A stretch of 64,000 nucleotides of DNA from Planctomycetota bacterium (GTDB lineage: Bacteria > Planctomycetota > Uabimicrobiia > Uabimicrobiales > JABWCH01). The stretch is from positions 1 to 64,000 of the forward strand of contig JAGOMP010000004.1 of NCBI GenBank assembly GCA_017993505.1, written 5' to 3'. The position numbers and the translations under genes were made by a program. Positions within the stretch are counted from its first letter, which is position 1; each line of letters opens with the position of its first letter. The notes beneath the pieces are model-generated. The model did no database searches and had not been told where the DNA came from. It saw nothing but the letters and a program-made list of their open reading frames with translations. Of this stretch, positions 3,401 through 20,425 are shown piece after piece.

Positions 3401-6400
3401 TTATATTTTTGCCATAAACATATTTTGTGTAATGTCTAGAACGTTTTGGGCAGATGCGTCTTGTATGTTGTTGGAATCACGAATGTAAATGCTAGAAATA
3501 GTTTCTTGGATTTGTTCAAGAACAGTAGGAAGTGGGAAAGCGTTTAAAGATGTACTACCACTAGCCATGAGTTCTGGTGATACAATAATGGTGTTTACAG
3601 GATAATCTTTTTCTATAGGAGGATTAAACCATAATGTGTCTGGTGTGTATTTATAGGGAACTCGTTCTTCTTTTTTAGTGCCTGCGTTGAATATGAGAGT
3701 ACCTTGTTCTGGAATAGTACTAATATCATTGATTTCTATGTATGTTGAATCAGGTCGAAGGTGGTTATTAAGATAAAGGCTGGGGATACTGATATAAGCA
3801 TGTGTGGAAAAATGATAGGGACAAGGTTCTTGGAGATAAAGGATGTTGTCTGTGCGTTTGTATTGAGTAGTGTATGTATGGAATAGTCCTTCAATGATAA
3901 TTTTTCCTATCTTTGGTAGGTCTTGGGCATTGTGGAGTTTGATTTCCTGAGTACCTTTTGCAATGTTTTCAGCAAGAGCAAGTTCTGAGCGAAGATGGGC
4001 GATGTATATGGATTCGCCTTTTCTATGGTGGTATTTGACAGGTGCTTGCAAGATGAGTCGGTAAGGATGTTTTTTGTACCAAAGGATGTCAATTTTTTCT
4101 TTGCTATCTATATATAGACTCCCTTGGCTTGGTAAAAGTGTTTGAATATCTATGTTAAGTTTTTCATCTAGTGATGTAAGAGGAGTCTTTATTTCTGTTT
4201 GCATGTAATCTTGGAAGTCAAGAACAGTGCCTACAGAGTGTAAAAACTCAAGGGCTTTTGTAAAGTAAATTCTATGGGGATGACGTTGAAATTGTGCCAT
4301 TTCTTCAGATTGGCTACCTGGTTCCAAAATGATTGTGCCTTGTATAGGAAAGTCGGGTACACAAGAAAAATCTACATGAATTGTAGTATCATTGTAAAAG
4401 GATTCTTGAGCGGGAACATCCACAGCATGAATTTGTATAGGAGTATTGATAGGATAGTGGTCTTTATTTTTAGATTGCAATAAGAGTGTGTTACTGCATT
4501 CTGTTCGTACAAATGGAAATACTTCTTTAACACCTTTTGTACCATTGAAGTGGATTTCTAATTTTCCTTTTAATGGAAAGTGAGTAGCGTCTTCTACTGT
4601 AATAATATGATTCCCTTGGTATGCTTCATATTTAAGGGGGCTTTCTAGTTTAGCTTCTATAACTTGTTCATTAGGGAAGTGTGTGTATCGTGTAGGTGTA
4701 GTAAGTTCAAAATATCGTTTAATGACTTGAAAATCGCATATTTCTTGGTTGTTTTCACCAGGATCTAGGATAATTTGACCATGACTAATATCTTCTGAGA
4801 AAGCTTGTAGTATGAGTTTTGTTGCTTTTCGTGCTGCGAAAGCAATAGTTTTTGTTTTTAAGTTTGTATCTTTGAGTTGAACGATGATATTGATGTTATG
4901 ATTAAACTGTAAAGGTGATGTGAGTTTTAATTCAATGGTTTCACCTTGTGGAATGACTCGTTCTTCTGTAGATGTATCAGGAGCAATGATTAATAGCCCA
5001 CGTTTATTAAAATATTTTGTGCTAACAACTGGTAGATAGACAGAACGTGCAGCGATTTTTTTTTGGATGGTGGTTGTGGGAGGAATGAGACGTACTGTAG
5101 CATTAGTTGGAATATTACTCGATTCTGTATCATGAAGTTGGAGTGTATTTTTTACAAGAGTATAAGGAATGATTTTAGTTGTTTGATTGTATTGAATCTT
5201 GACTAGACCTTTTTCTGAAAATGTAATGTCGTAAGGTAAAGGAATTTTGTCAGTACATTCTTCTTCTGTGGTGAATTGTGGAAGTATAGGGCGAACAAGA
5301 ACAGGATTATCTTCTGTGGGTATATGACGATAACGTAATCCTGTGTCTAGGTGCAGGATAGGGCTATTGGGTTTGCGATGGTAGCGAAATTCTTCAGAGT
5401 CTTGTATTTTAGCAATGCCTCTGAGGGGAATTTTCTCTAAGTTATTGAGTACGATAGTAAATTGATTCTGATCAACATATGCTTCTTGAGCTAGTTTTGT
5501 TTGGTATGGTATAGTAGGCAACCAACGAACAGAGGCACCATTGGCATGAGAATAGCTAAGTCCTTTTTCTAGGTATAAAATATAGGGATTGTAAGTGAAT
5601 GTTCGTTTTTCTCTTAGAGTGGTGCCAGGAGCAATGTGTACAATTCCTTTGTTTAATATAGGAACAGAAGAAGGGGCTAAGTCCATGTACATGGCTCCCG
5701 GTTCTGTGAGTATTTGTAGATAATGTTTATATGGTTTACTTGATTTGATAAAAGGAATAGTATCGTGAGGTTTTTGTTCGCTTACTAAGAGTTCTGAGAG
5801 TACGTTTTCTACATTTAAATTGATACGAACTCCAAAATGTTTAAGGGCAAATTCATGAATGTATTGGGTGAGGTTGATGGTAGTAATAGGAGATTCTGTC
5901 CAATATTTGTGTTGCCAAAAAGCGTATAAAACAATGAGTTGTTGTTTGTATGTTTCTTCTTCGATTCTGTCAATAAGATACACAAGAACGCCATGATTAT
6001 TTCCTACGTTATTGTAGTAAAAATGACGGAGCATATCTTGATAGTAGTGGCGTTTCTGTTTATCCCATGCGTAGATGGCGTGGAATAAAGATAATAAGGA
6101 AGCAACTGCTAAGAGAGTGAACCAAGGGCTAAGGATAGATAGGATGGATGCTATGCTTGCAACGAGTCCATGACAAGCAACGTAAAGTTTTTTTTGCCAA
6201 GATATTTTTAAGTAGAGACCTGGAAAAATAATGGCAAGGTATTCTTGTGGTATGTTCTGGAATAGTTTTAAAATAATAGGTTGTGGTAAAGAAGAACGAT
6301 CGCTTTCCATTATTTTATTATGTCGTCTTTGGAGTGTTTGGCGAAATGGACGTGTTAGAAAAGCAAGTCTTTTATAGCACGGAATGTTATAGGTTTGTTT

Positions 6401-6853
6401 TTTTAGCCACAAAGATTTCCAAGTTCGTTTTGTTCTTGTTTGAAAAAATGGATCCCGAAAGTAAATGATGAAATCACGACATTTTTCTGGTGAAAAGATA
6501 GATTGTACGCCTTTTAAGTGATTTTGATGTAGGATGTCTTGCATATCATATTCTGTAATTTCTTGGTATTGTGCTTGACCTAGAAATTGGCGAAATTTAT
6601 TAATGAGTATTTTTGCAAAATCTTCTTCTTCCTCTTCTGTGAGTTGTACTTGAGACGTAGTATCAGGGTTAAATGGATGATAGAGTATAGATAGTTTATT
6701 AGATACTTTTCGAAATTTATTAGATATATAAAAGTCAAATACTTTTGTGAAGTGACAAAAAAGTTCTCTATCTTGTTCTGAAATATGAGTTTGTAGGACT
6801 CGGAGAAATTTTTCTTTATGAATCGGGATTGCTTCTTCAAACCATATAGACAT
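3401..6853 (-). CDS. DUF3754-like membrane protein with about nine C-terminal beta-type repeats
   Basis: An 1150-aa protein of unknown function. Two hydrophobic segments lie at about residues 224-262. They are followed by YYNNVGNNHGVLVYLIDRIEEE, which resembles the DUF3754 (TMEM143-like) family, and a helical region to about 365. From about 430 to 1120 the chain is built of roughly 75-residue degenerate repeats. Each has a core of the form P-x-x-G-x-I-x-I, then an acidic EE, an aromatic, and a closing tyrosine/histidine-rich turn (for example LPSQGSLYIDS, FPIQGTIILEPG, IPEQGTLIFNAG). The gene starts 14 nt after lpxB and belongs to the same cluster. The repeats look like small beta units of the kind seen in phage-tail or adhesin proteins, but topology and role are unknown. 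The DUF3754 match is by eye. Confidence 0.75.
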   Translation of the reverse strand: MSIWFEEAIPIHKEKFLRVLQTHISEQDRELFCHFTKVFDFYISNKFRKVSNKLSILYHPFNPDTTSQVQLTEEEEEDFAKILINKFRQFLGQAQYQEITEYDMQDILHQNHLKGVQSIFSPEKCRDFIIYFRDPFFQTRTKRTWKSLWLKKQTYNIPCYKRLAFLTRPFRQTLQRRHNKIMESDRSSLPQPIILKLFQNIPQEYLAIIFPGLYLKISWQKKLYVACHGLVASIASILSILSPWFTLLAVASLLSLFHAIYAWDKQKRHYYQDMLRHFYYNNVGNNHGVLVYLIDRIEEETYKQQLIVLYAFWQHKYWTESPITTINLTQYIHEFALKHFGVRINLNVENVLSELLVSEQKPHDTIPFIKSSKPYKHYLQILTEPGAMYMDLAPSSVPILNKGIVHIAPGTTLREKRTFTYNPYILYLEKGLSYSHANGASVRWLPTIPYQTKLAQEAYVDQNQFTIVLNNLEKIPLRGIAKIQDSEEFRYHRKPNSPILHLDTGLRYRHIPTEDNPVLVRPILPQFTTEEECTDKIPLPYDITFSEKGLVKIQYNQTTKIIPYTLVKNTLQLHDTESSNIPTNATVRLIPPTTTIQKKIAARSVYLPVVSTKYFNKRGLLIIAPDTSTEERVIPQGETIELKLTSPLQFNHNINIIVQLKDTNLKTKTIAFAARKATKLILQAFSEDISHGQIILDPGENNQEICDFQVIKRYFELTTPTRYTHFPNEQVIEAKLESPLKYEAYQGNHIITVEDATHFPLKGKLEIHFNGTKGVKEVFPFVRTECSNTLLLQSKNKDHYPINTPIQIHAVDVPAQESFYNDTTIHVDFSCVPDFPIQGTIILEPGSQSEEMAQFQRHPHRIYFTKALEFLHSVGTVLDFQDYMQTEIKTPLTSLDEKLNIDIQTLLPSQGSLYIDSKEKIDILWYKKHPYRLILQAPVKYHHRKGESIYIAHLRSELALAENIAKGTQEIKLHNAQDLPKIGKIIIEGLFHTYTTQYKRTDNILYLQEPCPYHFSTHAYISIPSLYLNNHLRPDSTYIEINDISTIPEQGTLIFNAGTKKEERVPYKYTPDTLWFNPPIEKDYPVNTIIVSPELMASGSTSLNAFPLPTVLEQIQETISSIYIRDSNNIQDASAQNVLDITQNMFMAKI

Positions 6854-6867
6854 GTTTGCTACCTTGT

Positions 6868-8037
6868 TTATTGTATTTTACCATTGTTTTGTAATATTGT
6901 ATATATTTCTTGAGCAACTTTTTCTGATGCACCTGGTTTTTCAAGTTGTTGACAAAGTTGTTGTAGATTTTCTTTCATTTGTTTTCGTTCAGGGCTATCT
7001 TCATTCCATAAGGCAAGGAATGATGCCATGATTTCTTGGGGAGTTTCTGAAGTTACAAGATATTCAGGTATGATTTCTTTATCTGCAATAATATTGGGTA
7101 ATGTAAAATATTTGCATTGTAATATAAAATTTTTAAGTAGTCGATGGTAAAATTTTACTCTATATATAACAAGCATAGGTGTTTGTAAAATAGCAGTTTC
7201 TAATGTAGCAGTTCCTGATGTAACGAGTGCAAAATGAGAATTTTTCAAAACATCATACGTTTGTTTTTGAATAATTTGCAATTCTGGCAAGTTATATTTC
7301 TCTTTTCTTTTGTCATATATTTTTTTAATAAGGGGTAAATATTTTTCTGAAGATAATGCTAGAATGGCTGGTATGGGTTGTTTTTGTTGTTTGTTGAGTT
7401 GACTCCATGCCCAAAGCATGACAGGAAAATTACCTATGATTTCTACATGTCGACTTCCTGGGAGTAAAGCAAGGTAGGGTGATATAATATTATTTTCTAT
7501 TTTAAAATTTGTGTTGTATTGGTATGTAGCAATTCTATCTAATAATGGATGTCCTACATAGGAAACGGGTACATTAGCTTTTTGATAGAAAGAAACCTCA
7601 AAGGGAAATATCACAAGCATTTTGGAAATATATTTTTTAATTTTTTTTATGCGCCAAGGTGCCCATGCCCAAATTTGAGGCGTGACGTAATAAACTATAG
7701 GGATGTCCCATTTTTTTACTTGTGAAGCTAAGTGTAAGTTGAAGCCAGGATAGTCAATGAGAACAATTAAGTCAGGGCGTTCTTTTTTTATGTAGTCTAA
7801 TGCAATTTTACGAAAGTGCAGGACTTTACGCATTCCGAGTGCAATGGCTAAAAAACCCATAACAGAAAATTCGCGAACAAGATTGTATAGAAAATGCATG
7901 CCCGTGGATTGCATTTTATCGCCACCCATTCCAGAAAAGGTAAGGTCAGGATCATATTGTTGTAATGCTTGAATGACTTGGGCTCCATATATATCACCAG
8001 AAGCATCGCCTGATACGAAGAATATGTTTTTTTTCAT
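6868..8037 (-). CDS. lpxB: Lipid-A-disaccharide synthase
   Basis: A 389-aa GT-B glycosyltransferase that joins lipid X and UDP-2,3-diacylglucosamine to form lipid A disaccharide at the inner membrane. Diagnostic segments are VSGDASGDIYGAQ at about residues 8-20, FSGMGGDKM, the proline/tryptophan-rich YYVTPQIWAWAPWR near 120, and the donor-site LLPGSRHVEI near 195. Length matches E. coli LpxB (382 aa). It is 12 nt downstream of the pentapeptide membrane protein and 14 nt upstream of the DUF3754-like gene, so the three are probably co-transcribed. Other lipid A genes are absent from the window. Confidence 0.95.
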   Translation of the reverse strand: MKKNIFFVSGDASGDIYGAQVIQALQQYDPDLTFSGMGGDKMQSTGMHFLYNLVREFSVMGFLAIALGMRKVLHFRKIALDYIKKERPDLIVLIDYPGFNLHLASQVKKWDIPIVYYVTPQIWAWAPWRIKKIKKYISKMLVIFPFEVSFYQKANVPVSYVGHPLLDRIATYQYNTNFKIENNIISPYLALLPGSRHVEIIGNFPVMLWAWSQLNKQQKQPIPAILALSSEKYLPLIKKIYDKRKEKYNLPELQIIQKQTYDVLKNSHFALVTSGTATLETAILQTPMLVIYRVKFYHRLLKNFILQCKYFTLPNIIADKEIIPEYLVTSETPQEIMASFLALWNEDSPERKQMKENLQQLCQQLEKPGASEKVAQEIYTILQNNGKIQ

Positions 8038-8049
8038 GAATTATCCTAG

Positions 8050-10716
8050 CTAGATTCGTAATTTTGTACGAACAAATGTTATCATAAACAAAAATAAGCA
8101 ATAGAAACCTAATAAATTTTCTAAACATTGTAAAAGTAGATTTACGTAGTTTTCTTGAAAAAAAGATTCTTTCCAAAAAAGGATGCCTGAAGGCATAAAA
8201 GCGTGAAAACTTATCAGAATAGAAGATATAATGTTTTGCAGACTAGGTGTAGCTGATATTTTTGGCATATATATTGTTTGTGCTGGTGGACATTGAAAGT
8301 AAATACCGCCAAAAAGCAGAATGATAGCTAAAGAAAAAAGAAGTACGTTTAAAGGTTTTGTGCCATATCCACAACCTAGGTCAAGGAAGAGGAAGTTTAA
8401 GAAGTACTTGATAGGCTGGAGTGGATTTTTTGTAAAGATAGGTTGTGCTTTTCGTTCTGATTGTAAAGCTTTACAGTGTGCCCAATATGCATCTCTTTCT
8501 TGTCCTTGACGTTGGAAGATTTTTTGTAATGTGATATATTCGAGGTGCATTTGGTGGTAATTTTTTTCATATTCTGCAAGTAATTTTCCATCGATTTGTT
8601 TACGATCTAATCGTATATAGTCTCCAATGATGTTGGCAAAGGAAATGTATTTTTCAAAGATAGTTTCTTGTAAATCTAGTTTTTCATGAAAAATTGCTCT
8701 TTCAAATCGAACGTTTGTATAAAATGTGCATTCATAAATAGTGATGCTACCTGTAAAGATAGTTTCATGAAAATTGACTATGCCTTGAAATTTACATTGA
8801 TCTATTCTTGTGTTGCCTATTTCACCATGCGAACAGTCTACTTGGGATCCAAAGGAATTTTTTTCAAAAACAATTTTACCTTGCACGAAAAGTTTTGCCA
8901 TGTCTAGGTCTTGAAAAAACTCTGTTCTGCGAATGCAGAGGTTATTTTTGAAGATAGATTCGTTGAACTGTGTAAGTCCATAGAAGTAACAACCAATGAA
9001 TGTGAGACTATAGTCGGACTGTATTTTTTTGAAATTGGCTATCTTTTCAAATGGGCAATTGGAAAATTCTATTTTATTATTGAAGTTAGCTTCTTGAAAA
9101 TTTGTTTGAGTAAATTGTGTAGCTGTTATATAACAAGCACCATTGAGTTTTGCTTTAGAAAAATCGCAGATTGTGTCTATTTTGCTATCTGAAATACTAA
9201 GGAGTCCTTCTATTGTTGTTCCTTTAGCAATGATAGCATAAAATTGGCTATTGAATATACTAAAACCGCTTTCAAAGATAGTATCTGAAAGATGCCATTC
9301 ATTAAGAAATCGGCAGTTATTAATTTGTACTTTTTTGGCAAAAAAAGCATGATGCCAATTGACTTCGCTAGCAATGTCTACGTTTTGTAAGACAACATTG
9401 TTTTTAAAAATACTAGGATTATCTCCACCAAAAAGGAATATTTCTTTAATTTTACAATTTTTGATAAGAACGGTATCATTGAAATCTGCTTCATTGGCAA
9501 ATAAACGATGAATTTCGCAATCAACGATGTGTACTGGATAGTCGTAGACTTGATTTCGTAAATCTAAGCAATCAATTTTTTGACGCACGATTGATTTACC
9601 TTGTAATAATAATTCTACGTAATCAATATCGCTTTGTTCTTGTTTTTGTTGATTGTTGTTTTTACCAATGATTTTTTGGTATGTTTCTGGTTTATTGGAA
9701 TAGATTTGTGGTACTGCTTTTTCAAAAAACAAATCATTATGTCCATGCTCAGAAGGTTGGAATAAAAATTCACTTTCTTTGATTTTAGCAGTATCTTGTA
9801 GGCTTTTTTGTTCTTGGAATTGTTCTCTGGGTTGTTCTCTGAATTGTTGTCTGGGTTGTTCTTGAAATTGTTGTCTGGGTTGTTCTTGAAATTGTTGTCT
9901 AGGTTGTTCTTGAAATTGTTGTCTAGGTTGTTCTTGAAATTGTTGTCTAGGTTGTTCTTGAAATTGTTGTCTGGGTTGTTCTTGAAATTGTTGTCTGGGT
10001 TGTTCTTGAAATTGTTCTCTGGGTTGTTCTTGGAATTGTTGTTTGAAGCCTTCTTTGAATTGTTGTCTAAGATCTCTTTTTGTGACAATAAGTTTTTGAG
10101 TTTTTAAAGTTTTGATTTGTTGTAATTTTTCACTAAGCGAAAGAGGCATATTTTTTTCTTCTGAGACTGATAACTGTGTTTTTTGTTCTTGTTGTATAGA
10201 ATGAAAAATATCTTGATCATCCATTTCTTTTTTGTTATTTATAGTTTTTTGAGGACAAACACGTTCGACGTTTTCGCTAGACAATTCGTCAGTGTTTGTT
10301 TTATTTTCATATTGATTGTTTCTCTCTGCAGATGGTTGCATTTTTTCTACAGACAGTTGTATATTTTGTTCTTGAAGAGGCAAATAATTTTCTCCATTTT
10401 CTGAGTTCATTTTATTGGGATATAACAGCTCACTTTGTTTTTCTGATGGACTGGTAGGTTGAAATAAATCAAGGCGTGTTTCTTCCATATTTAATGGAAT
10501 GTTTTCTTCGGAAGTACTTTCATCAGCTATCTTTGTTTGGTCTTTTTTGGGTAGTATATCTATTGTTTCTCTAGATGATGAATTGTGTATCTGTGATTTT
10601 GAAAGTGTAAAATGTGAGTCTGATAAAATTGTTGGACTATATTTATACTTTTTCAAAAACGCTGCATTGTCAGTAGGTGGTACTGCATCAGAATTTGTGA
10701 CATTTTTGTATGTCAT
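8050..10716 (-). CDS. Pentapeptide-type membrane protein with QFQEQPRQ repeats
   Basis: An 888-aa three-part protein. Residues 1-220 are polar and disordered-looking. About 222-302 is an octapeptide tandem repeat, QFQEQPRQ. About 375-745 is a right-handed beta-helix-like region of degenerate pentapeptide repeats (F/N/I at every fifth position, for example FNDTVLIKNCKIKEI). The C-terminus carries CGYGTKPLNV followed by at least two hydrophobic segments (about 795-885). This layout resembles pentapeptide proteins fused to a two-helix ion-channel-like domain. No TxGYGD-type selectivity filter is visible, so transport is not claimed. The start is preceded by AAGGGG. It heads the cluster with lpxB. 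Confidence 0.75.
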   Translation of the reverse strand: MTYKNVTNSDAVPPTDNAAFLKKYKYSPTILSDSHFTLSKSQIHNSSSRETIDILPKKDQTKIADESTSEENIPLNMEETRLDLFQPTSPSEKQSELLYPNKMNSENGENYLPLQEQNIQLSVEKMQPSAERNNQYENKTNTDELSSENVERVCPQKTINNKKEMDDQDIFHSIQQEQKTQLSVSEEKNMPLSLSEKLQQIKTLKTQKLIVTKRDLRQQFKEGFKQQFQEQPREQFQEQPRQQFQEQPRQQFQEQPRQQFQEQPRQQFQEQPRQQFQEQPRQQFQEQPRQQFREQPREQFQEQKSLQDTAKIKESEFLFQPSEHGHNDLFFEKAVPQIYSNKPETYQKIIGKNNNQQKQEQSDIDYVELLLQGKSIVRQKIDCLDLRNQVYDYPVHIVDCEIHRLFANEADFNDTVLIKNCKIKEIFLFGGDNPSIFKNNVVLQNVDIASEVNWHHAFFAKKVQINNCRFLNEWHLSDTIFESGFSIFNSQFYAIIAKGTTIEGLLSISDSKIDTICDFSKAKLNGACYITATQFTQTNFQEANFNNKIEFSNCPFEKIANFKKIQSDYSLTFIGCYFYGLTQFNESIFKNNLCIRRTEFFQDLDMAKLFVQGKIVFEKNSFGSQVDCSHGEIGNTRIDQCKFQGIVNFHETIFTGSITIYECTFYTNVRFERAIFHEKLDLQETIFEKYISFANIIGDYIRLDRKQIDGKLLAEYEKNYHQMHLEYITLQKIFQRQGQERDAYWAHCKALQSERKAQPIFTKNPLQPIKYFLNFLFLDLGCGYGTKPLNVLLFSLAIILLFGGIYFQCPPAQTIYMPKISATPSLQNIISSILISFHAFMPSGILFWKESFFQENYVNLLLQCLENLLGFYCLFLFMITFVRTKLRI
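9816..10045. repeat. In-frame 24-bp tandem repeat (QFQEQPRQ)
   Basis: About nine to ten copies of a 24-bp unit (TTGTTGTCTRGGTTGTTCTT plus GAAA on the plus strand) encode QFQEQPRQ on the minus strand. Because the unit is a multiple of three, copy-number change keeps the frame and only alters linker length. It also leaves all six frames open here, which creates spurious reading frames. Confidence 0.93.
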
Positions 10717-10832: not shown

Positions 10833-11942
10833 TTAGTTCTGTCTTATCCCTGGGATAGTTTGGTATTTAAGTTCAATTTTTCCTTTTTCATCTTGGTATC
10901 GAATCGCAGCTGTATTGTAGAATACTTTTTCTTCTTTTGTTTCGTATACAAGTTTTCCATCAATATCCTTTACTGGAATTTTTGTAATAGGATCGATTTT
11001 GAGTTGTCTAACTTCTTTCATATAAGAACGTTTGACATTAGGACGAATTCCTATAAGTTTCCAACCAGGATTAAAGTAAATTGATTTTTGTAATTCTTTG
11101 ATATATGCTCGTTTTTCAATTTTTTCACCTTTTCTTATTCGAGCAGATACTTTTCTCCAATCGCCTTTTTCCCATTTCATAAGTTCTATAAATGCTGTGT
11201 TGCCTGCTACGCCTTTTAATACTAAATCATATAAAGGTAAAATAGACCCTGATTTTCTTTCTGTATATTTGCTAACTATTATATTTTTAGGAAGATTAAA
11301 TTCTGTTATATCTTGTTTTGTAAGGGCTTCACCACCTTTAGCTTCTGTATTGTTTGTCCAGCAACGTACTTTATAGGAATAAGTAACTTTTGGTTCAATC
11401 TCAGTATCTTCGTAGCTTGTTTCTTGTAGACGAATAATGTCTCTTTGGATTTTATTGTCAGCTTTCCATTCTTTAATGAGGTGATATCCTGCTACGTCTG
11501 CTAAATCTTTATATTCCCCATCATCACCAATAAGTTTATCAGGTGCACTCCAAGAAAGATCAATTTTTTCACGTTCTATATTAATTTGAAAATTACTAGG
11601 AAGATTAATCCATTGAAAACTAGGTGCAACTCCTTGTCTAAAAATCTCTTTGGCTGTTTCATATATAAAATCTTGCTTAACAATAGCAAGCTTTTGTGTA
11701 TCTTTCTCCCAAGTTTTTCTAACAATATCAAGAAAAGGAGGAAGTTCTTTAACATGAACCTCTTGATTCTTCATCTCTTTTAGTATGTAGTTATAGTCTT
11801 TTTCTATCTCTTTAATTTTTTTCTCTGTTTGACTATCAGCAGTTGAGATAAAAGCACCGATAATCATTAAAACACTTACACTTAATGCAATCCAGCCACC
11901 AAATTTTATCAATATCTTTTTAAAATCTTCTAGGTTATTCAT
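10833..11942 (-). CDS. Single-pass membrane protein with FN3-like domain
   Basis: A 369-aa protein of unknown function. One hydrophobic helix at about residues 15-33 (WIALSVSVLMIIGAFI) is followed by a charged coiled-coil (about 36-75). A fibronectin-III-like beta region follows at about 120-205, with IDLSWSAP near its start and TYSYKVRCW near its end. The rest is beta-rich and lysine-rich. The predicted orientation puts the domain in the periplasm. It is 109 nt downstream of the 1488-aa voltage-sensor-like gene and on the same strand, so a shared transcript with gspE is plausible. The FN3 assignment rests on pattern only. Confidence 0.7.
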   Translation of the reverse strand: MNNLEDFKKILIKFGGWIALSVSVLMIIGAFISTADSQTEKKIKEIEKDYNYILKEMKNQEVHVKELPPFLDIVRKTWEKDTQKLAIVKQDFIYETAKEIFRQGVAPSFQWINLPSNFQINIEREKIDLSWSAPDKLIGDDGEYKDLADVAGYHLIKEWKADNKIQRDIIRLQETSYEDTEIEPKVTYSYKVRCWTNNTEAKGGEALTKQDITEFNLPKNIIVSKYTERKSGSILPLYDLVLKGVAGNTAFIELMKWEKGDWRKVSARIRKGEKIEKRAYIKELQKSIYFNPGWKLIGIRPNVKRSYMKEVRQLKIDPITKIPVKDIDGKLVYETKEEKVFYNTAAIRYQDEKGKIELKYQTIPGIRQN

Positions 11943-12051: not shown

Positions 12052-15000
12052 TTAATAATTTCCTAGTTGTGCAATATACTGCCTATAGTTTTTTACATCC
12101 ATTACAGAAAGTGTTTGGATCGTTCGAAGAGAAAGTAGCTCATCTGACCAAGAGCTTGAATTTAAAATAATACTTTCTATTATTTCATCTATAATCACAA
12201 TATCACCTTCATTTTTGATAATAAAGAGAACTTCTTTGAGTTGGGTTCGTTTCTCAATATATGCTTTCCAACAGCGTTTTTTATCTTTATTATTATATTT
12301 TTTATCGTATTCTATATCTTTCCAAAATTTTTTAAAATTTTCATATTCCCAATTATTATGCCAAGTACTCAATCGTCGTTTACATCTTAAAAAGAAAATA
12401 CGAATTTCTTGGATGAGTGATAATTTTTTTGATTCTAAAGTTGCATCAAATACTTCCATAAGAGTTTCTTTAGCATTAAGAAGGGAAGACAATTTTCGAT
12501 AATCAATGGTGTATGCAATTGCCAATGCTCTTAAAATTTGGTAATGCCGATGTTGGAGTTCTTTTACTAAACTATTGGCTTGTATATTTATATTGGGATT
12601 AATTTTTTTCAAATATTCAATAAAACCGTTTTCTACCCACCCTTGTTGTTCAACAAATTGAATGAATTTTCGTAATTGTTTTTTTCTTTTAGAAATTAAT
12701 TCACGAAAATAGTCATATTCATGGTTAAGAGCATGGATGTATTCTAAATCTTGCATTAATAGAGCAACATGTTGTTTTTCTTCATCTGTTTCTTTTATAG
12801 AATCAGTTGCTAAATCCTCAGACCATGGTAAAGAAAGTCCTAAATATTCAAAATCGTATTGAGCACGTAATTTTGCACATGCCATATAGATTGGTTTTCG
12901 CATTCGATTGATTTTTCGAATGGCTACATCAAAATCTGCTTTGGGAGACACTTCAAATTCAGAGTATTGATCTCGCTTTAATAATCTATTAATGTTCACA
13001 CAACACCATTTGAATGAAAACCAAATAGCTTTACAAGCCCACCATATTAATACGAATGGAAATAAAAATATTCTCCCTCCTGCTAGATGCTCGTGATACC
13101 ACTGATACATATTAATAGAACGTTGTGGTTTAGGGAGATTGCGCAAAGGATATGTACCAAAAACAGTTCGAATAATATTTTCTCTATCTTTGCAGAATAT
13201 TTCGTATAGTTCTTCGCTAAAATTGAATCGAATCATTTCATCTTGACTTGGATTATATGAAAGAAAATGGAGTGCATTAAAATACGTGGTACTATATTCT
13301 GGTTTTGTATTTTCCCATTTGAATAATGTTTGTTTGAATAATTTTAGTTTTTTTCTCTTAGAAAGTTCAGGAGATGGAATCTTCTCTACAGAAGCTCGAC
13401 GTTTTTTCCCAGAGCGTTTGTTAAGCCATTTATAGTAATGTGCTCTATTCTCTTTTGTTTGCATATTGAGAAGGGATTTTCGTATGGCATGTTTATTATA
13501 TTCAAAAATGAGTTGAGCTGTATTATGACAAATGCTTTGTGTAATGAAACTAAACCATAAATAGGGACTAAAAAAACTACGATTTTTTGTTAAATCAAGT
13601 CGTGATAGTTGTTTAAATTGTTTTTTTGTATATCTTAATCGATGTGTTCGAATATTGCTGATGATAATGTTTCCTAAAAATTGTTCTGTAGTTTTTATAT
13701 CACTTTTATGTAAGGGAGCTCCATCTAAGTAATCTTTGTATAGGAGTAAAACTTGTTGGTATAGTCGTTCGCTACTGACTTCTTCTCGAGTGACAGTTTC
13801 ATTACTCTCTTCCTCTTCTTGCATATTCGTAATATTATTTCGCATTTGTTCCATTAATGTAATAGATTCGGGGAAATTGCGATCTTCTTGTTGTCGTATT
13901 CTGACTTCAGGCTGTAAAACTCTATCGTGAATAAATTGTAAATCTTGTTCTAAAATTTCTATTTTTAATGTTTTTAATAAGTTAATGAATTGTGCCTCTG
14001 CTATTTTTTCATAAAATCCACTAGCTTCGCCTGCAACTTTTCTAAGCCAATATCCAAATAAAAAAGGAATAAGACATATACAGCCCATGATAATCAAAGG
14101 CATTCCAAATATTTTAGTTGTGTAGTTGAGTATAGTCTTCATAAAAGGGAAAGGGAGCATGCTAAAAAGCAGATTTGCAAGGATAAAAAATCCACCAAAC
14201 ATAAATAAACGTTTCGTAGGATGTTTAAAAGTAAGAATAAGTTTATCGGCAATTTTATCTAATAAACGAGATGCAGTTACAACGCCATATAGATCACAGA
14301 ACCAATATATACTTGCCAAGATTCGTTCTAGCATTCTGCCGAATAATCGACCAATACGTGCTGTAAAATCTGGTGCTAAATGTTTTTTATGCAAAGCCAA
14401 AATACGTTTGACAATAGGAAGTCGTCGTATTAAAGGAGCGTCTAAATATCCCATATATTGATGTATAACATAAGAAAAGTCACGTCCAAGTATGTCTTCT
14501 ACTTGTTTTCCTTGTAGATTTAAAAATAAATGCATGATGTCTTCAATTAAAATATCAGGTTTTAAAGAATAACTTTCTGCAATAATAATTCCTTCATCTG
14601 GTGTTTGTAAACGAATTTCTAAGGAAACTATGTAGGCAATCATAAAAGGCTGAGGACGCTCTAAATTCTCATAGAAACGTCGATTATTAAAAATATAATG
14701 AGTACGCAACTCTTGGATTTTTTGTAGGAATGTGGGTTCTTGAAGTTCTTGTACTTCATCAAAAGAACCAAAAAAAACAATATTTCGATTGAGCCATCGT
14801 GCATAGCGTTTTACAAGTCGATCAATTCCACGAACAAGAAATGTAATGACACGAAATATTCGAATAACAGGTCGAATGACGCGAATATATCGAACAATTC
14901 TTTGTAGTCGTATTATTCGATATAATCGTGCAAATTTTGCATATTCCATTCTTTGTAAACTAGTCGAAATGAAACCGACTGGAATCGAAGGTAAGATATC

Positions 15001-16518
15001 AATAAGAAAATGGCGATAAAAGTAGAACAGTTTTCCTTTGACTAAAATAAGTTTTGTGAAAATTTCCATTAAAAATATAAAACATATGATTAAGTCTAGC
15101 CAACGAAAAAAGGTGTGTATTTTTCCAATTAAGCGGACTTCTAATGTATGGTCTTTTGCAATCACTAAAAAGGAATATCCATGTTTTTTATCTACAATTT
15201 CCCATTCTTGATGGTATTTATGGATAAGCACAACTATATCTTGCGATAATACGTATTGATTTTTTTCAAAAATTTTATAGATAGCTTTAGGTAAGGGTTC
15301 TACTTTGCTTGCCATACCAGCTGTGTCTGCATCATTTAAATCTGTGGCGTATTTTGGTGCTAAATCAAATTTATATTCTGAAAAATATTTAGTATCGTCT
15401 AAAAATAATAATAGAATCATAAGAAAAATTAAGAAGATAATAAAATTTTCAAAATAAAATACAAATTTTTTCCCAAAAATTGATTCTAATTTTTCTTGTA
15501 ATTCTTGTTCCTGTAATTCGGTAACGACAGATCGATATAGTTTTTTTACCTTTTTGTATTTTTTTTTTAATTTTTTATCATTTTTATTATTTTTATAATT
15601 TTCTTTCAGAAATTTCAGTAGCCATTTACAATCTTCTTTAATTGTAGTCAGTGTTTTCACTGTTTTTGCAAGACTAACTTCTTCAATGCTGACAATGGCT
15701 TCATCAAATCGTTCTTGCATTTCTGTAATTAAGTGGTCCGTCCAAGATTCTGCATCTTCTGGTAAACTTGCTTGTATCCTTTGGAGAATATAATTTTTTA
15801 AATTATTTCTAGCATTTCTACAATTATTAAAGATTACACGATGAGATTTTTTGCGTCGACTCATATTAGATGGAATGACATTGCCCCAACGTGTGATTTT
15901 TTTTATTTGTTCAAAAGATATTTCATCCTGTGCAAGAAGACGTTCTGTTTCTGCTTGAAACACGCGTACTTCTTCCTGCAATACTTGATCACTTAAATTT
16001 TGTACTCGTGCTTTAATACATTTAAAATAAATTTTTTTTAAACGATAAGATTGACTAATAAAAGCATAAACTTCGCTAAAAATATCAGGTGATATGTTTT
16101 GGTCAATATTTTTTTCTAAATGAACAGCCAATTTTTTTAAAAATAATAATTCTACTGCATAACTTTGTACTTGTGCCACAAGAATATGACTATCGAGTTG
16201 AACATTATAATCAATCTCATTGAAAATAATTTCCAACTCATTAATACGTTTAGCAAGCCAATTTTTGGCTTCTTGAGGAGATTGTTTTAATCTTTGATAT
16301 AGTTCTTGATAAATTGATAATTCGGCAGTTGTTAATGTTTGAGATAATAAAATTAAATCATTTTCTTCTAGAATATTTAATGAAATGCTAAATGACTCTC
16401 GAATTTCTAAAGATTTGTGATATAAATTCCATATTTTTTCCATATCACATTGCATGAGATCCACGGCTTGTTCATTGAGTTCTAAAATATTTTTTTTTAA
16501 AACGTGTGCCTCTTCCAT
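12052..16518 (-). CDS. Giant membrane protein with voltage-sensor-like S1-S4 unit
   Basis: A 1488-aa protein. Residues 1-345 are helical and charged. A hydrophobic helix near 355-380 (S1-like) is followed by a loop of about 95 residues. Then come an S2-like helix with FLMEIFTKLI near 480, an S3-like FLIDILPSIPVGF, and an S4-like helix at about 525-560. In the S4-like helix seven arginines recur at exactly every third residue (RLYRIIRLQRIVRYIRVIR). Such S4 spacing, and the F-x-x-E charge-transfer pattern in S2, are hallmarks of voltage-sensor domains. No pore loop or selectivity-filter motif follows. Further helices lie at about 773-840 and 1150, inside long soluble helical regions. It begins 26 nt after gspE. 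Function is unknown. Confidence 0.75.
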   Translation of the reverse strand: MEEAHVLKKNILELNEQAVDLMQCDMEKIWNLYHKSLEIRESFSISLNILEENDLILLSQTLTTAELSIYQELYQRLKQSPQEAKNWLAKRINELEIIFNEIDYNVQLDSHILVAQVQSYAVELLFLKKLAVHLEKNIDQNISPDIFSEVYAFISQSYRLKKIYFKCIKARVQNLSDQVLQEEVRVFQAETERLLAQDEISFEQIKKITRWGNVIPSNMSRRKKSHRVIFNNCRNARNNLKNYILQRIQASLPEDAESWTDHLITEMQERFDEAIVSIEEVSLAKTVKTLTTIKEDCKWLLKFLKENYKNNKNDKKLKKKYKKVKKLYRSVVTELQEQELQEKLESIFGKKFVFYFENFIIFLIFLMILLLFLDDTKYFSEYKFDLAPKYATDLNDADTAGMASKVEPLPKAIYKIFEKNQYVLSQDIVVLIHKYHQEWEIVDKKHGYSFLVIAKDHTLEVRLIGKIHTFFRWLDLIICFIFLMEIFTKLILVKGKLFYFYRHFLIDILPSIPVGFISTSLQRMEYAKFARLYRIIRLQRIVRYIRVIRPVIRIFRVITFLVRGIDRLVKRYARWLNRNIVFFGSFDEVQELQEPTFLQKIQELRTHYIFNNRRFYENLERPQPFMIAYIVSLEIRLQTPDEGIIIAESYSLKPDILIEDIMHLFLNLQGKQVEDILGRDFSYVIHQYMGYLDAPLIRRLPIVKRILALHKKHLAPDFTARIGRLFGRMLERILASIYWFCDLYGVVTASRLLDKIADKLILTFKHPTKRLFMFGGFFILANLLFSMLPFPFMKTILNYTTKIFGMPLIIMGCICLIPFLFGYWLRKVAGEASGFYEKIAEAQFINLLKTLKIEILEQDLQFIHDRVLQPEVRIRQQEDRNFPESITLMEQMRNNITNMQEEEESNETVTREEVSSERLYQQVLLLYKDYLDGAPLHKSDIKTTEQFLGNIIISNIRTHRLRYTKKQFKQLSRLDLTKNRSFFSPYLWFSFITQSICHNTAQLIFEYNKHAIRKSLLNMQTKENRAHYYKWLNKRSGKKRRASVEKIPSPELSKRKKLKLFKQTLFKWENTKPEYSTTYFNALHFLSYNPSQDEMIRFNFSEELYEIFCKDRENIIRTVFGTYPLRNLPKPQRSINMYQWYHEHLAGGRIFLFPFVLIWWACKAIWFSFKWCCVNINRLLKRDQYSEFEVSPKADFDVAIRKINRMRKPIYMACAKLRAQYDFEYLGLSLPWSEDLATDSIKETDEEKQHVALLMQDLEYIHALNHEYDYFRELISKRKKQLRKFIQFVEQQGWVENGFIEYLKKINPNINIQANSLVKELQHRHYQILRALAIAYTIDYRKLSSLLNAKETLMEVFDATLESKKLSLIQEIRIFFLRCKRRLSTWHNNWEYENFKKFWKDIEYDKKYNNKDKKRCWKAYIEKRTQLKEVLFIIKNEGDIVIIDEIIESIILNSSSWSDELLSLRTIQTLSVMDVKNYRQYIAQLGNY

Positions 16519-16544: not shown

Positions 16545-18248
16545 TTATATTGTATCCATTTGTGTGACACGTAGAACTTCATCAATAGTAATTGCACCTT
16601 CTAATACTTTTTTAGCACCATCCATTCTCAAAGTTCGCAAACCACGTTTTACAGCCTCTTGTTTAATAATAGTGGCTCCTAAACGTTGGATGACTTGTTC
16701 ACGAACTCTATCAGTAATGGGCAAAATTTCATACAAACCAATTCGATCTTTATAGCCTGTTCTCATACATTTTTCACAACCACTTCCCGCCATAAGTGTG
16801 CCTTTAGGCCCTAAATCAGTACGACTTAAACCAATAGATTGCAATTTTGCAACTGTAGGTTCATATTCTTCTTGGCATCCTGTGCAAATGCGCCGTGCTA
16901 ATCGTTGAGCAATCACGCAAATCACAGAGGAAGAAACTAAATAAGGTTCCACACCAATATCTAGTAATCGAGTCATAGCACTTGCTGAATCATTTGTGTG
17001 CATAGTAGAAAACACTAAGTGTCCTGTCAATGCTGCTTGTATAGCGATTCTAGCTGTTTCTTCATCACGAATTTCACCCAACATAATAATATCTGGGTCT
17101 TGGCGAAGTAATGTCCGTAATCCCATAGCAAATGTAAGACCTTTTTTTTCTGAAACTTGGATCTGGCTAATATTGCGGAGATGGTATTCAATCGGGTCTT
17201 CGATAGTCATTACATTTTTTTCAATAGCATTGATTTTCAATAAAGAACCATATAATGTAGTAGATTTTCCACTACCTGTTGGACCTGTTACTAGCATAAT
17301 TCCATGTGTAAAATGAATGAATTGTTCAATCATTTTAAGATTTTTTTTATCTAGCCCAATTTCATCTAGAGAATACATACGAGCAGATTTATCTAATAAA
17401 CGCATCACAATTCGTTCGCCATGCGATGTGGGAACAGATGAAATACGAATATCAACTTCTGAATCGCCCATTTTAATGGTTTTACGTCCATCTTGAGGCA
17501 ATCGTTTTTCTGCAATATCCATTCGTCCCATAACTTTAACACGACTGATAATCGCATCTTGGTGTTTTTTAGGAACAGATTGTACATCATATAAAATACC
17601 ATCAATTCTATATCGAACTTGCAATTTTTCTTCATAGGGCTGTAAATGGATATCACTCACCCTTTGTTTGATGGCTTGTAAAATAATGTTATTGACGGTG
17701 CGAATGATGGGAGGTTTATTGGACGCATCTAAAATATCCATTTCTTCTTCATCAAAGTCATCCACACCATCAGAGTCTTCGTCTAAATCAGCAACATTTG
17801 TTTCACTATTAATATTTTGTTTATATGCATTGTTAATAACAGCCACAATTTCAGAGCGAGGTGCTAAAACACTGTCTAATTCTGCATCTAAAAGACTCGC
17901 CAATTCATCCATAGGATGTGTTAAAAGTGGCGTGCATGTAGCAATTTGATAAATATTGCCTTCCATGCCAATGGCAATCAAATTATAATTGCGTGAAAAA
18001 TTAATCGGAACTTTACGACAGAAACTTTCAGGAACTAAAGACGGATCAATTTTTTCAACAAGACGAAACCCAAATTCATCAGCAAAAACTTGCAAAAAAT
18101 CTTTTTCTGTAATATATCCTCTCTGGATCATAAACTGGTCGATAGATAAGTTAAATTCTTCAGAACCTGCAATAATTTCGCCTATTTTTGATTCGTCTAA
18201 TAATCCATTCGTGACAAAGATTTCTAATAATTTATTTTTATTGATCAT
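16545..18248 (-). CDS. gspE: Type II secretion / pilus assembly ATPase GspE
   Basis: A 567-aa hexameric assembly ATPase of the GspE/PilB family, which powers pseudopilus or pilus extension at the inner membrane. An N-terminal MshEN-like region (about 1-130) is followed by an acidic linker, then the ATPase core. The core has Walker A GPTGSGKSTTLY near residue 320, an Asp box, Walker B region IIMLGEIRDEETA and a His box GHLVFSTMHTND. A tetracysteine zinc site (CTGC ... CEKC, about 457-495) supports GspE/PilB over PilT. The gene lies downstream of gspD but is separated by a strong hairpin. No other gsp core genes are in the window, so T2SS versus type IV pilus remains open. Confidence 0.92.
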   Translation of the reverse strand: MINKNKLLEIFVTNGLLDESKIGEIIAGSEEFNLSIDQFMIQRGYITEKDFLQVFADEFGFRLVEKIDPSLVPESFCRKVPINFSRNYNLIAIGMEGNIYQIATCTPLLTHPMDELASLLDAELDSVLAPRSEIVAVINNAYKQNINSETNVADLDEDSDGVDDFDEEEMDILDASNKPPIIRTVNNIILQAIKQRVSDIHLQPYEEKLQVRYRIDGILYDVQSVPKKHQDAIISRVKVMGRMDIAEKRLPQDGRKTIKMGDSEVDIRISSVPTSHGERIVMRLLDKSARMYSLDEIGLDKKNLKMIEQFIHFTHGIMLVTGPTGSGKSTTLYGSLLKINAIEKNVMTIEDPIEYHLRNISQIQVSEKKGLTFAMGLRTLLRQDPDIIMLGEIRDEETARIAIQAALTGHLVFSTMHTNDSASAMTRLLDIGVEPYLVSSSVICVIAQRLARRICTGCQEEYEPTVAKLQSIGLSRTDLGPKGTLMAGSGCEKCMRTGYKDRIGLYEILPITDRVREQVIQRLGATIIKQEAVKRGLRTLRMDGAKKVLEGAITIDEVLRVTQMDTI

Positions 18249-18310: not shown

Positions 18311-20425
18311 TTAGTTTTGAGAAGGATTCTGTACATAAGGAGTTTTGTAGTCCATCATATAAATAGGTCGTAGCTCACCTTGTTTTACACCATATTTTTG
18401 TTGGTATTTTTTGAAATTGGCATCAATAGCATTCATATTTCCGCCCATATTTTGGACTTTCATTTTGTAGTCGTAAGAATGTTTGTATAAGTCAGAAAAA
18501 GATTCTTCTCTGAAAATATTAGGAGTTAAGAATAGATAAATATTGCGTTTTGCATGTTCTACAATGCGAGTTTGAAATAAAATACCAATAAGAGGTAAAT
18601 CACCTAAAAGAGGTATTTTTTCAATAGATTCAGATTCTTTATCATATGTAAAACCACCAATAGCAACTGTTTGACCATCAGGTACTGTAATAGAAGTTTG
18701 AATATGACGAACCTTTTTAGGATATACACCACTTATACTTGGTTGGCTTTTATCAAATTCATCAATGCTTTGGTCTATATCTAGACGAAGATAATTAGCT
18801 TCACCACTAATATGTGGCGTAATGGTCAATGTAGTTCCAGCTTCAATAAAACTATCAATACCTTGCGTTTGCGATCCTGAATTATTTTCTGTAATTTTGC
18901 TTGAGGGTGAAGAATCAGCAACTTTTATCACTGCTTGCTCATGGTCATTTGTCAAAACGCTAGGAATAGATAAAATTTTGAATTTGCCGTCCTGTTTCAT
19001 AGCTTTGAGCAACATAGGCATTGTAAAAACATCTTTGTAATTTAAAAAAGCATTGATGCCTCGGCTAATGTCCTTTCTATTACTAAAGGGTATTTTCCCA
19101 ATTTTTTCAGCTTCGATTTTTTTACTACCATCTATGAGACTAGCTTCTCCGTCTTTATCTATGGCCACTAAATTTGAAAAACCAAAATCAGAACCGCCTC
19201 CAAATGTAACTCTATCTTTATCAGGAGTTTCTGCCCAAAATAATTCAATGCCCAGCCCCATCATTTCATCAGGACTGATTTCAATCAATGCACCTTCAAT
19301 TAATACTTGAGGTCGTCTTACGTCTACTTGTTTGATGATTTGTTCAATTTCTTTCCAATCTTGTTGTTCTGCTTTGACAATCAAAGAATTTGTTTGAGAT
19401 TCTGCTTGAATGGAAGGTTGGATCATTTCTCCTGTACCTGTAGAAGAAGCAACTTTCCCAGTACTACCTGCACCACGTTTACTTAAACCGCCACCTTCTA
19501 ATAATTTTGTCAAAGTTTCTTGCAATTTTGTAGCATCCGCATGTTTTAAGCGAATATAATGAATATAACTAGGTTCTGCTATTAAATCTTGGTCCAATTC
19601 TTCAATTAAATTAATCATCAATTTCATTTTATCTTGATATGCTTGCAAAATCACAGCATTTAGACGTCGATCTGCAGAAATTTTAATATTTTCTACATCC
19701 ATGCCCATACCACCTGCACCCGCGACACCTGTTTTTTTATCCTTTGCAATTAATTCTGTTAATTTTTCTACGACTTCTTCAGCAATTGCATTTTTTAATC
19801 GAATAATTTTAAAATCACTTTCTGGTCCTTGTTGATCCATGAGTTTAATAACGTCATAGATACGTTTGACATTGGGTGCAAAATCTGTGATTAAAATAGT
19901 GTTTGATCCCTCAATACCAGCCAAGTTTCCACCTTGGGGGTTTACAATTCGCAAAGCTCTTAAAATGGTTTGTACTTCACGAGCAGAAATGTACGTTAAT
20001 TTCATAACCATAGAAATAAAATGGTCTTGTCCTTTAATGCTTTCTAATTCCTCTTCTGTATAGATTGTACGAGTTTGTGTCCAAGGTCCTTGCGTACTTC
20101 GTTTAATTTTTATTACTTCTGAACCATTTGTGCCTGTGGTTTCTAAAATATAACCATTATATTCAATAATAGATAAAAATATTTTATACAAATCATCGTC
20201 AGAAACTGCACTAGGGGACACTAAAAAAATCTTACGCCCTTTAACGCTATTATCATATAGAATCCTTTTATTTAGTTTTTTTGCAACATAATTAATAAAC
20301 AGTTCTAATTCATAATCTATTAATGTTAAATTACTATCAATGTCCTCTTGTGCTTTCACTTGCGGAGGAAAAATACAAACAAATGAAAAAATGAAGCAAA
20401 GCAATGCGATTAAACTAAATCTCAT
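18311..20425 (-). CDS. gspD: Type II secretion secretin GspD
   Basis: A 704-aa outer-membrane secretin. A signal peptide (about 1-25, ending VKAQ) is followed by several N-domains of about 70-80 residues (ISAREVQTILRAL, KIIRLKNAIAEEVVEKL, IHYIRLKHADATKL) and then the secretin core from about 370. The core carries QVLIEGALIEI, VPDGQTVAIGGF and IPLLGDLPLIGILF, the conserved closing motifs of the family. Length fits GspD better than PilQ. It is the most upstream gene of the minus-strand group and faces the RND operon across a 600-bp divergent spacer containing a repeat array. Confidence 0.93.
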   Translation of the reverse strand: MRFSLIALLCFIFSFVCIFPPQVKAQEDIDSNLTLIDYELELFINYVAKKLNKRILYDNSVKGRKIFLVSPSAVSDDDLYKIFLSIIEYNGYILETTGTNGSEVIKIKRSTQGPWTQTRTIYTEEELESIKGQDHFISMVMKLTYISAREVQTILRALRIVNPQGGNLAGIEGSNTILITDFAPNVKRIYDVIKLMDQQGPESDFKIIRLKNAIAEEVVEKLTELIAKDKKTGVAGAGGMGMDVENIKISADRRLNAVILQAYQDKMKLMINLIEELDQDLIAEPSYIHYIRLKHADATKLQETLTKLLEGGGLSKRGAGSTGKVASSTGTGEMIQPSIQAESQTNSLIVKAEQQDWKEIEQIIKQVDVRRPQVLIEGALIEISPDEMMGLGIELFWAETPDKDRVTFGGGSDFGFSNLVAIDKDGEASLIDGSKKIEAEKIGKIPFSNRKDISRGINAFLNYKDVFTMPMLLKAMKQDGKFKILSIPSVLTNDHEQAVIKVADSSPSSKITENNSGSQTQGIDSFIEAGTTLTITPHISGEANYLRLDIDQSIDEFDKSQPSISGVYPKKVRHIQTSITVPDGQTVAIGGFTYDKESESIEKIPLLGDLPLIGILFQTRIVEHAKRNIYLFLTPNIFREESFSDLYKHSYDYKMKVQNMGGNMNAIDANFKKYQQKYGVKQGELRPIYMMDYKTPYVQNPSQN

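Follow-up and report, generated by a model that had tools for sequence, protein, structure and literature searches.

A Planctomycetota protein family with a probable voltage-sensor domain and no conventional pore

What could a bacterial voltage sensor do if no ion pore follows it? This question is raised by a 1488-amino-acid (aa) protein encoded in the stretch of DNA analysed here (hereafter the window: 64,000 nucleotides, positions 1 to 64,000 of contig JAGOMP010000004.1, assembly GCA_017993505.1, from a Planctomycetota bacterium of the order Uabimicrobiales), in which an earlier note, made from the letters alone, had seen an S4-like helix without a visible pore and a possible tie to secretion. 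According to a 2023 review, every prokaryotic voltage-sensor domain (VSD) known after database searches accompanies a pore for K+, Na+ or Ca2+ (PMC10377628); the pore-less Planctomycetota family that we describe appears to break this rule, and our searches of the open-access literature returned no description of this family. Orthologues, profiles and structure models bear out the voltage-sensor domain without a pore, and the link to secretion proved weak. With moderate confidence, we take a voltage-sensor-to-effector transducer as the most likely working model for this protein.

The S1-S4 domain

The S4 region carries eight basic residues in an unbroken run at exact i+3 spacing (K528, R531, R534, R537, R540, R543, R546 and R549), among them the seven regularly spaced arginines (R531-R549) that had been counted correctly in the earlier note. 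When the 1488-aa protein was shuffled 2000 times, the longest such run comprised seven residues (5 cases), and because no shuffle gave a run of eight, the pattern lies far beyond chance. The repeat is followed by Pro550 and then by R553, R556, R563 and R567.

We next give the conservation of these and other residues as counted over 51 aligned orthologues, the set to which all sequence counts below refer. D475, P513 and R556 are invariant (51/51). The proposed S2-like F-x-x-E...K pattern was found as F482-x-x-E485...K489 and is conserved, with E or D at position 485 in all 51 sequences and F (40) or L (11) at position 482, and the D475-F482-E485 spacing is that of E283-F290-E293 in Shaker. The proposed S3-like acid, D507, is likewise conserved (D or E in 47/51). 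Conservation of the S4 arginines in orthologues, which had been singled out as a check, is largely retained, most strongly at R537 (50/51), R543 (48/51) and R546 (46/51), followed by R540 (41/51), R534 (40/51), R531 (32/51) and R549 (28/51). Beyond the repeat, Pro550 is found in 41/51 sequences and R553 and R563 are nearly invariant; the helix after Pro550 may be an interfacial S4-S5-like helix.

A profile of the family (A1) searched against PDB matched the voltage sensors of Nav, Kv and HCN channels (best E 1.5e-7), and 13 of 14 members individually matched PF00520 (Ion_trans; best E 1.2e-10). AlphaFold2 models of residues 1-600 (predicted local distance difference test, pLDDT, 85.8; predicted template modelling score, pTM, 0.80) and of residues 331-1488 (pLDDT 81.8, pTM 0.76) show a helical domain at the N-terminus, then the S1-S4 bundle, a pair of transmembrane helices (TM5 and TM6) that runs into a helix of 64 residues, and a C-terminal module that is likewise helical. 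Among structural matches of the S1-S4 model obtained with VIA were PKD2 (Z 8.8, root-mean-square deviation (rmsd) 4.7, 130 aligned), Nav1.7 VSD4 (Z 7.6, rmsd 5.3, 120 aligned) and Nav1.4 (Z 7.4, rmsd 4.0, 112 aligned), with TRPC5 and Nanchung among the others; Foldseek alone gave no match for either model at E 0.001 or below. The modelled bundle thus resembles channel voltage sensors with moderate scores, rather than showing S4 as the soluble amphipathic helix of which the earlier note had warned, and these scores agree with the sequence-based assignment of a probable voltage sensor.

Several observations weigh against the transducer model. Z scores of 7-9 are moderate, and the same aligner scores common helical arrangements in that range; some members have fewer S4 arginines, with positions 531, 534 and 549 varying most; and most members carry the proline at 550. 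In addition, the window protein alone gave no PF00520 match at E <1 in the Pfam scan, and its assignment therefore rests on the orthologue family. The case for homology to voltage-sensor domains is nevertheless strong, close to certain in our judgement, and from these sequence features the S1-S4 domain would be expected to sense voltage.

The region after the sensor

No K+ or Na+/Ca2+ selectivity-filter motif recurs across the 51 sequences. The K+-filter pattern occurs in just one of them (TEGLGE at residue 1136 of L052, well away from any membrane helix), and two others match a loose Na+/Ca2+ pattern; the K+ pattern recovers TGGFGD in a channel from locus L046, a positive control. The spacer between TM5 and TM6 measures 7-17 residues in 51/51 sequences, which, judged from K+ and Na+ channels, leaves no room for a pore helix plus a filter, and none of the sequences has a pore loop (P-loop) with a filter between these helices. 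The earlier view that no pore follows the sensor held on both counts, filter and spacer, with no normal pore domain found, and there is good support for the lack of a conventional pore. Many matches in the search of phylum genomes span only profile positions of about 350-476; the three such partial matches examined (L110-L112) are short channels, each with a TVGYGD filter. As for the "three or more further helices" that had been proposed, two are clear (residues of about 768-789 and 802-824) and a third (1149-1167) is possible.

The C-terminal module, comprising the last ~750 residues, matched no family in Pfam, NCBIfam or PADLOC. Foldseek (PDB and viral models) and VIA-align gave no convincing match to the module, which was modelled only within the longer construct and so may still have a known fold; its profile retrieved only ApoE (E 0.86) from PDB sequences. 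Viral contigs and plasmids yielded no matches. At least three genomes encode the module on its own, with no voltage sensor attached (L106, L107 and genome G219 being cited). The proteins at L106 (572 aa; 5672-7390) and L107 (520 aa; 5107-6669) match the hairpin and part of the 927-950 motif and are without the 1149-1167 hydrophobic stretch; by sequence recognition, we take one neighbour of the L106 gene to be prolyl-tRNA-synthetase-like and one of the L107 gene to be YidC-like.

The opposite arrangement was found in a 410-aa K+-type channel of genome G048 (L046:10067-11299; Ion_trans 5.2e-19), which shares with the family its type of pre-S1 and S1-S4 region but continues into an ordinary TGGFGD pore and lacks the C-terminal module. 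Because the L106 and L107 proteins lack the VSD and the L046 channel joins such a VSD to an ordinary pore, the sensor and the C-terminal module are separable units. In a tree with three other K+ channels of the phylum, the pre-S1/S1-S4 region of the L046 channel groups with the pore-less family against those channels (100/100); its branch is long and its exact placement unsure. This channel may be an intermediate that links channels to the pore-less proteins.

A working model and its rivals

In the working model, the S1-S4 domain, a genuine member of the voltage-gated channel superfamily by homology, would lie in the inner membrane, where a change in membrane potential would move S4 and the helix after it. 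Through the cytoplasmic linker, this movement would reach the TM5-TM6 hairpin and the 64-residue helix that continues it, and the conserved helical C-terminal module would change its conformation or its oligomeric state as a result. This module, which also exists without a voltage sensor, would be the output unit and presumably has effector activity, and no conventional ion pore would take part, there being no P-loop-sized segment between TM5 and TM6. The fuller claim, that the voltage sensors of this bacterial family drive a non-channel effector through a previously undescribed output module and so provide a direct protein-level readout of membrane potential, we regard as evenly poised.

The family shares with Nav, Kv and HCN channels the S1-S4 order, the S2 acid-aromatic-acid spacing, the S3 acid and the S4 basic repeat, as well as profile and structural similarity, but a ~160-residue cytoplasmic linker and a new two-TM module here replace the pore domain. 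By analogy, it also resembles the voltage-sensing phosphatases Ci-VSP and TPTE, whose VSD is likewise joined to a non-channel module that can be found on its own, although two extra TM helices are present here. Pfam scans found no phosphatase family, and hence no PTEN-type domain, after the VSD; a scan for the CX5R phosphatase motif matched 29/51 sequences and is uninformative. If voltage is indeed sensed, the protein would be a direct bacterial transducer of membrane potential, and the separation of sensor and pore would not be solely eukaryotic. The family would then be a counterpart of the eukaryotic voltage-sensing enzymes, one whose voltage signal may go to something other than ion current.

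Among the alternatives, the one that survives best, although we consider it unlikely, is a voltage-gated channel with an unconventional pore, formed without a P-loop by the TM5-TM6 hairpins of several subunits (perhaps with the third segment) in an MscS-like manner. TM5 and TM6 occupy the S5-S6 position, alignment A1 shows many conserved glycines in TM6, and mean net charges fit an N-in topology in which TM5 enters and TM6 exits on the cytoplasmic side, with the flanks after S4 and after TM6 near neutral. Against such a pore stand the missing filter, the uniformly short spacer and the sensor-less stand-alone modules, which keep the hairpin and show no Pfam channel signature.

Somewhat less probable again is that the S1-S4 domain, like that of many TRP-type channels, has lost voltage sensing and serves as a scaffold, either structural or responsive to a ligand. 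This would fit the PKD2 S1-S4 domain being the top structural match, the presence of TRPC5 and Nanchung among the others, and the variation of S4 basic positions in some lineages, but the family as a whole conserves the charge-transfer-centre trio and most of the basic positions in S4, which speaks against such a loss. An Hv1-like proton channel with a conducting S1-S4 domain is very improbable: the family shares with Hv1 and TMEM266 a VSD without an attached conventional pore, but it lacks the S1 acidic and S4 tryptophan features (no acidic residue at S1 positions 358-372 in 51/51 sequences; RxWR in the S4 of just 2/51), is much larger, and has two further membrane helices after the VSD and a new C-terminal module. 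Hv1 itself has not been found in prokaryotes (PMC10377628).

Distribution and gene neighbourhood

The protein was found in 16 of 59 genomes of the phylum that were searched. A scan of named-species genomes gave 58 distinct loci, mostly labelled Planctomycetota, such as those in the complete or isolate genomes of Candidatus Uabimicrobium amorphum, strain Pan216, Aquisphaera insulae and Paludisphaera soli, together with three labelled Myxococcota/Deltaproteobacteria and a few otherwise labelled metagenome bins. In a profile search of 392 Planctomycetota genomes, the C-terminal module was present in 61, three of which show the stand-alone form only (G111, G166 and G219; open frames of 526-588 aa) and two fragments only (G211 and G235); the fused form occurs in about 56 of the 392, with some copies split across contig ends. 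The three Myxococcota-labelled bins carrying the family (L053, L090 and L094) form their own starred clade in the tree, and the family may therefore extend beyond Planctomycetota.

Within the window, the minus strand reads gspD, gspE, the VSD gene, a one-TM protein, a pentapeptide-repeat protein and then an lpxB-like gene, which by sequence recognition we take to be lpxB (Table 1). The placement directly downstream of gspE is as the earlier note had it, with 26 bases between the end of gspE and the VSD gene. Five loci of the same order were compared (the window, L031/L048, L034/L052, L033/L050 and L035/L051, the last being U. amorphum), and gspE adjoins the VSD gene in three of them (the window, L048 and L052); one further genome, of the same family, has its VSD gene split over two contigs. 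All window neighbours are retained in L052, the upstream gspD-gspE pair in L048 and the three downstream genes in L050, with none of the window's neighbours within 8 kb in U. amorphum.

For the remaining named loci, blastp returned no homologues of the window neighbours (upstream sequence of 2.5 kb or more is available at 43 of the 58 loci), and clustering of neighbours across the named loci gave no gene shared phylum-wide, only within small lineage groups. The gsp linkage is not consistent: of all the named loci, only L048 and L052 have homologues of gspE and gspD beside the VSD gene. Since it is limited to some loci of the same order, we regard this linkage as an order-level feature giving little support for a dedicated secretion role, and the tie to secretion suggested in the earlier note is weak. 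The gspD-gspE-VSD order in the window, L048 and L052 could suggest a protein dedicated to regulating type II secretion or type IV pili, but we consider this as improbable as a proton channel, given that the genes of L050 and U. amorphum do not lie beside gspE.

Table 1 Features of the VSD protein and its neighbours in the window
Feature	Coordinates	Strand	Basis and remarks
1488-aa protein: N-terminal helical domain, S1-S4 voltage-sensor domain, two-TM C-terminal module	12052..16518	minus	Open reading frame (ORF) starting with ATG; full-length orthologues
N-terminal all-helical domain, residues 1-344	15487..16518	minus	AlphaFold2, pLDDT >85 over most of range
S1, residues 349-373	15400..15474	minus	Family hydropathy peak 357-375; predicted helix 350-375
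S1-S2 insertion, residues 374-465 (92 residues), mixed strand/helix	15124..15399	minus	Alignment A1; four predicted strands
S2, residues 466-492: D475, F482, E485 (charge-transfer-centre spacing), K489	15043..15123	minus	Conservation in 51 sequences
S3, residues 496-516: R502, H503, D507, P510, P513	14971..15033	minus	Conservation in 51 sequences
S4 and continuation, residues 526-571	14806..14943	minus	Conservation; predicted helices 526-535 and 538-571
Putative cytoplasmic linker S4-TM5, residues 576-737	14308..14793	minus	Topology inferred; mean pairwise identity 0.26
C-terminal module, residues 738-1488	12055..14307	minus	No Pfam family; stand-alone homologues L106, L107
TM5, residues 768-789	14152..14217	minus	Family hydropathy peak 775-789; predicted helix 749-787
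TM6, residues 802-824	14047..14115	minus	Family hydropathy peak 802-823; opens 64-residue predicted helix 791-854
Motif LYKDYLDGAPLHKSDIKTTEQFLGN region, C-terminal module, residues 927-950	13669..13740	minus	Partly kept in L106, L107
Third hydrophobic stretch, residues 1149-1167	13018..13074	minus	Possible membrane helix; missing from L106, L107
Motif RKINRMRKP, residues 1201-1209	12892..12918	minus	Within residues 1195-1230, mean identity 0.57
gspE-type ATPase, upstream neighbour	16545..18248	minus	Pfam T2SSE E 2.3e-127, MshEN 1.9e-9
gspD/secretin-like neighbour	18311..20425	minus	ORF, named from sequence alone; kept in L048, L052
One-TM protein, downstream neighbour	10833..11942	minus	Weak fn3 E 0.0018, below cut-off; kept in L050, L052
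Pentapeptide-repeat protein with C-terminal hydrophobic hairpin, no K+ filter	8050..10716	minus	Pfam scan; C-termini compared

Within the VSD protein, the probably cytoplasmic N-terminal domain is poorly conserved in sequence (mean identity 0.17 over residues 1-260), and residues 1195-1230 are the most conserved among the regions measured. The S1-S2 insertion is present in the window protein and L031/L048, is missing, over these columns, from every other member shown in alignment A1, and sits where PKD2 has its extracytosolic domain.

We also observed some features of the pentapeptide-repeat protein. Its C-terminal hairpin is preceded by DLGCGYGTKP (DLGSGYGTKP in the L034 homologue), so placed that the sole GYG lies before the hairpin, and an FxPSG/FIPGG/FLPGN-like sequence lies between the two helices; the homologues in L033 and L034 share the same kind of C-terminus. 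The N-terminal third of the protein contains a run of near-identical QEQPRQQF repeats.

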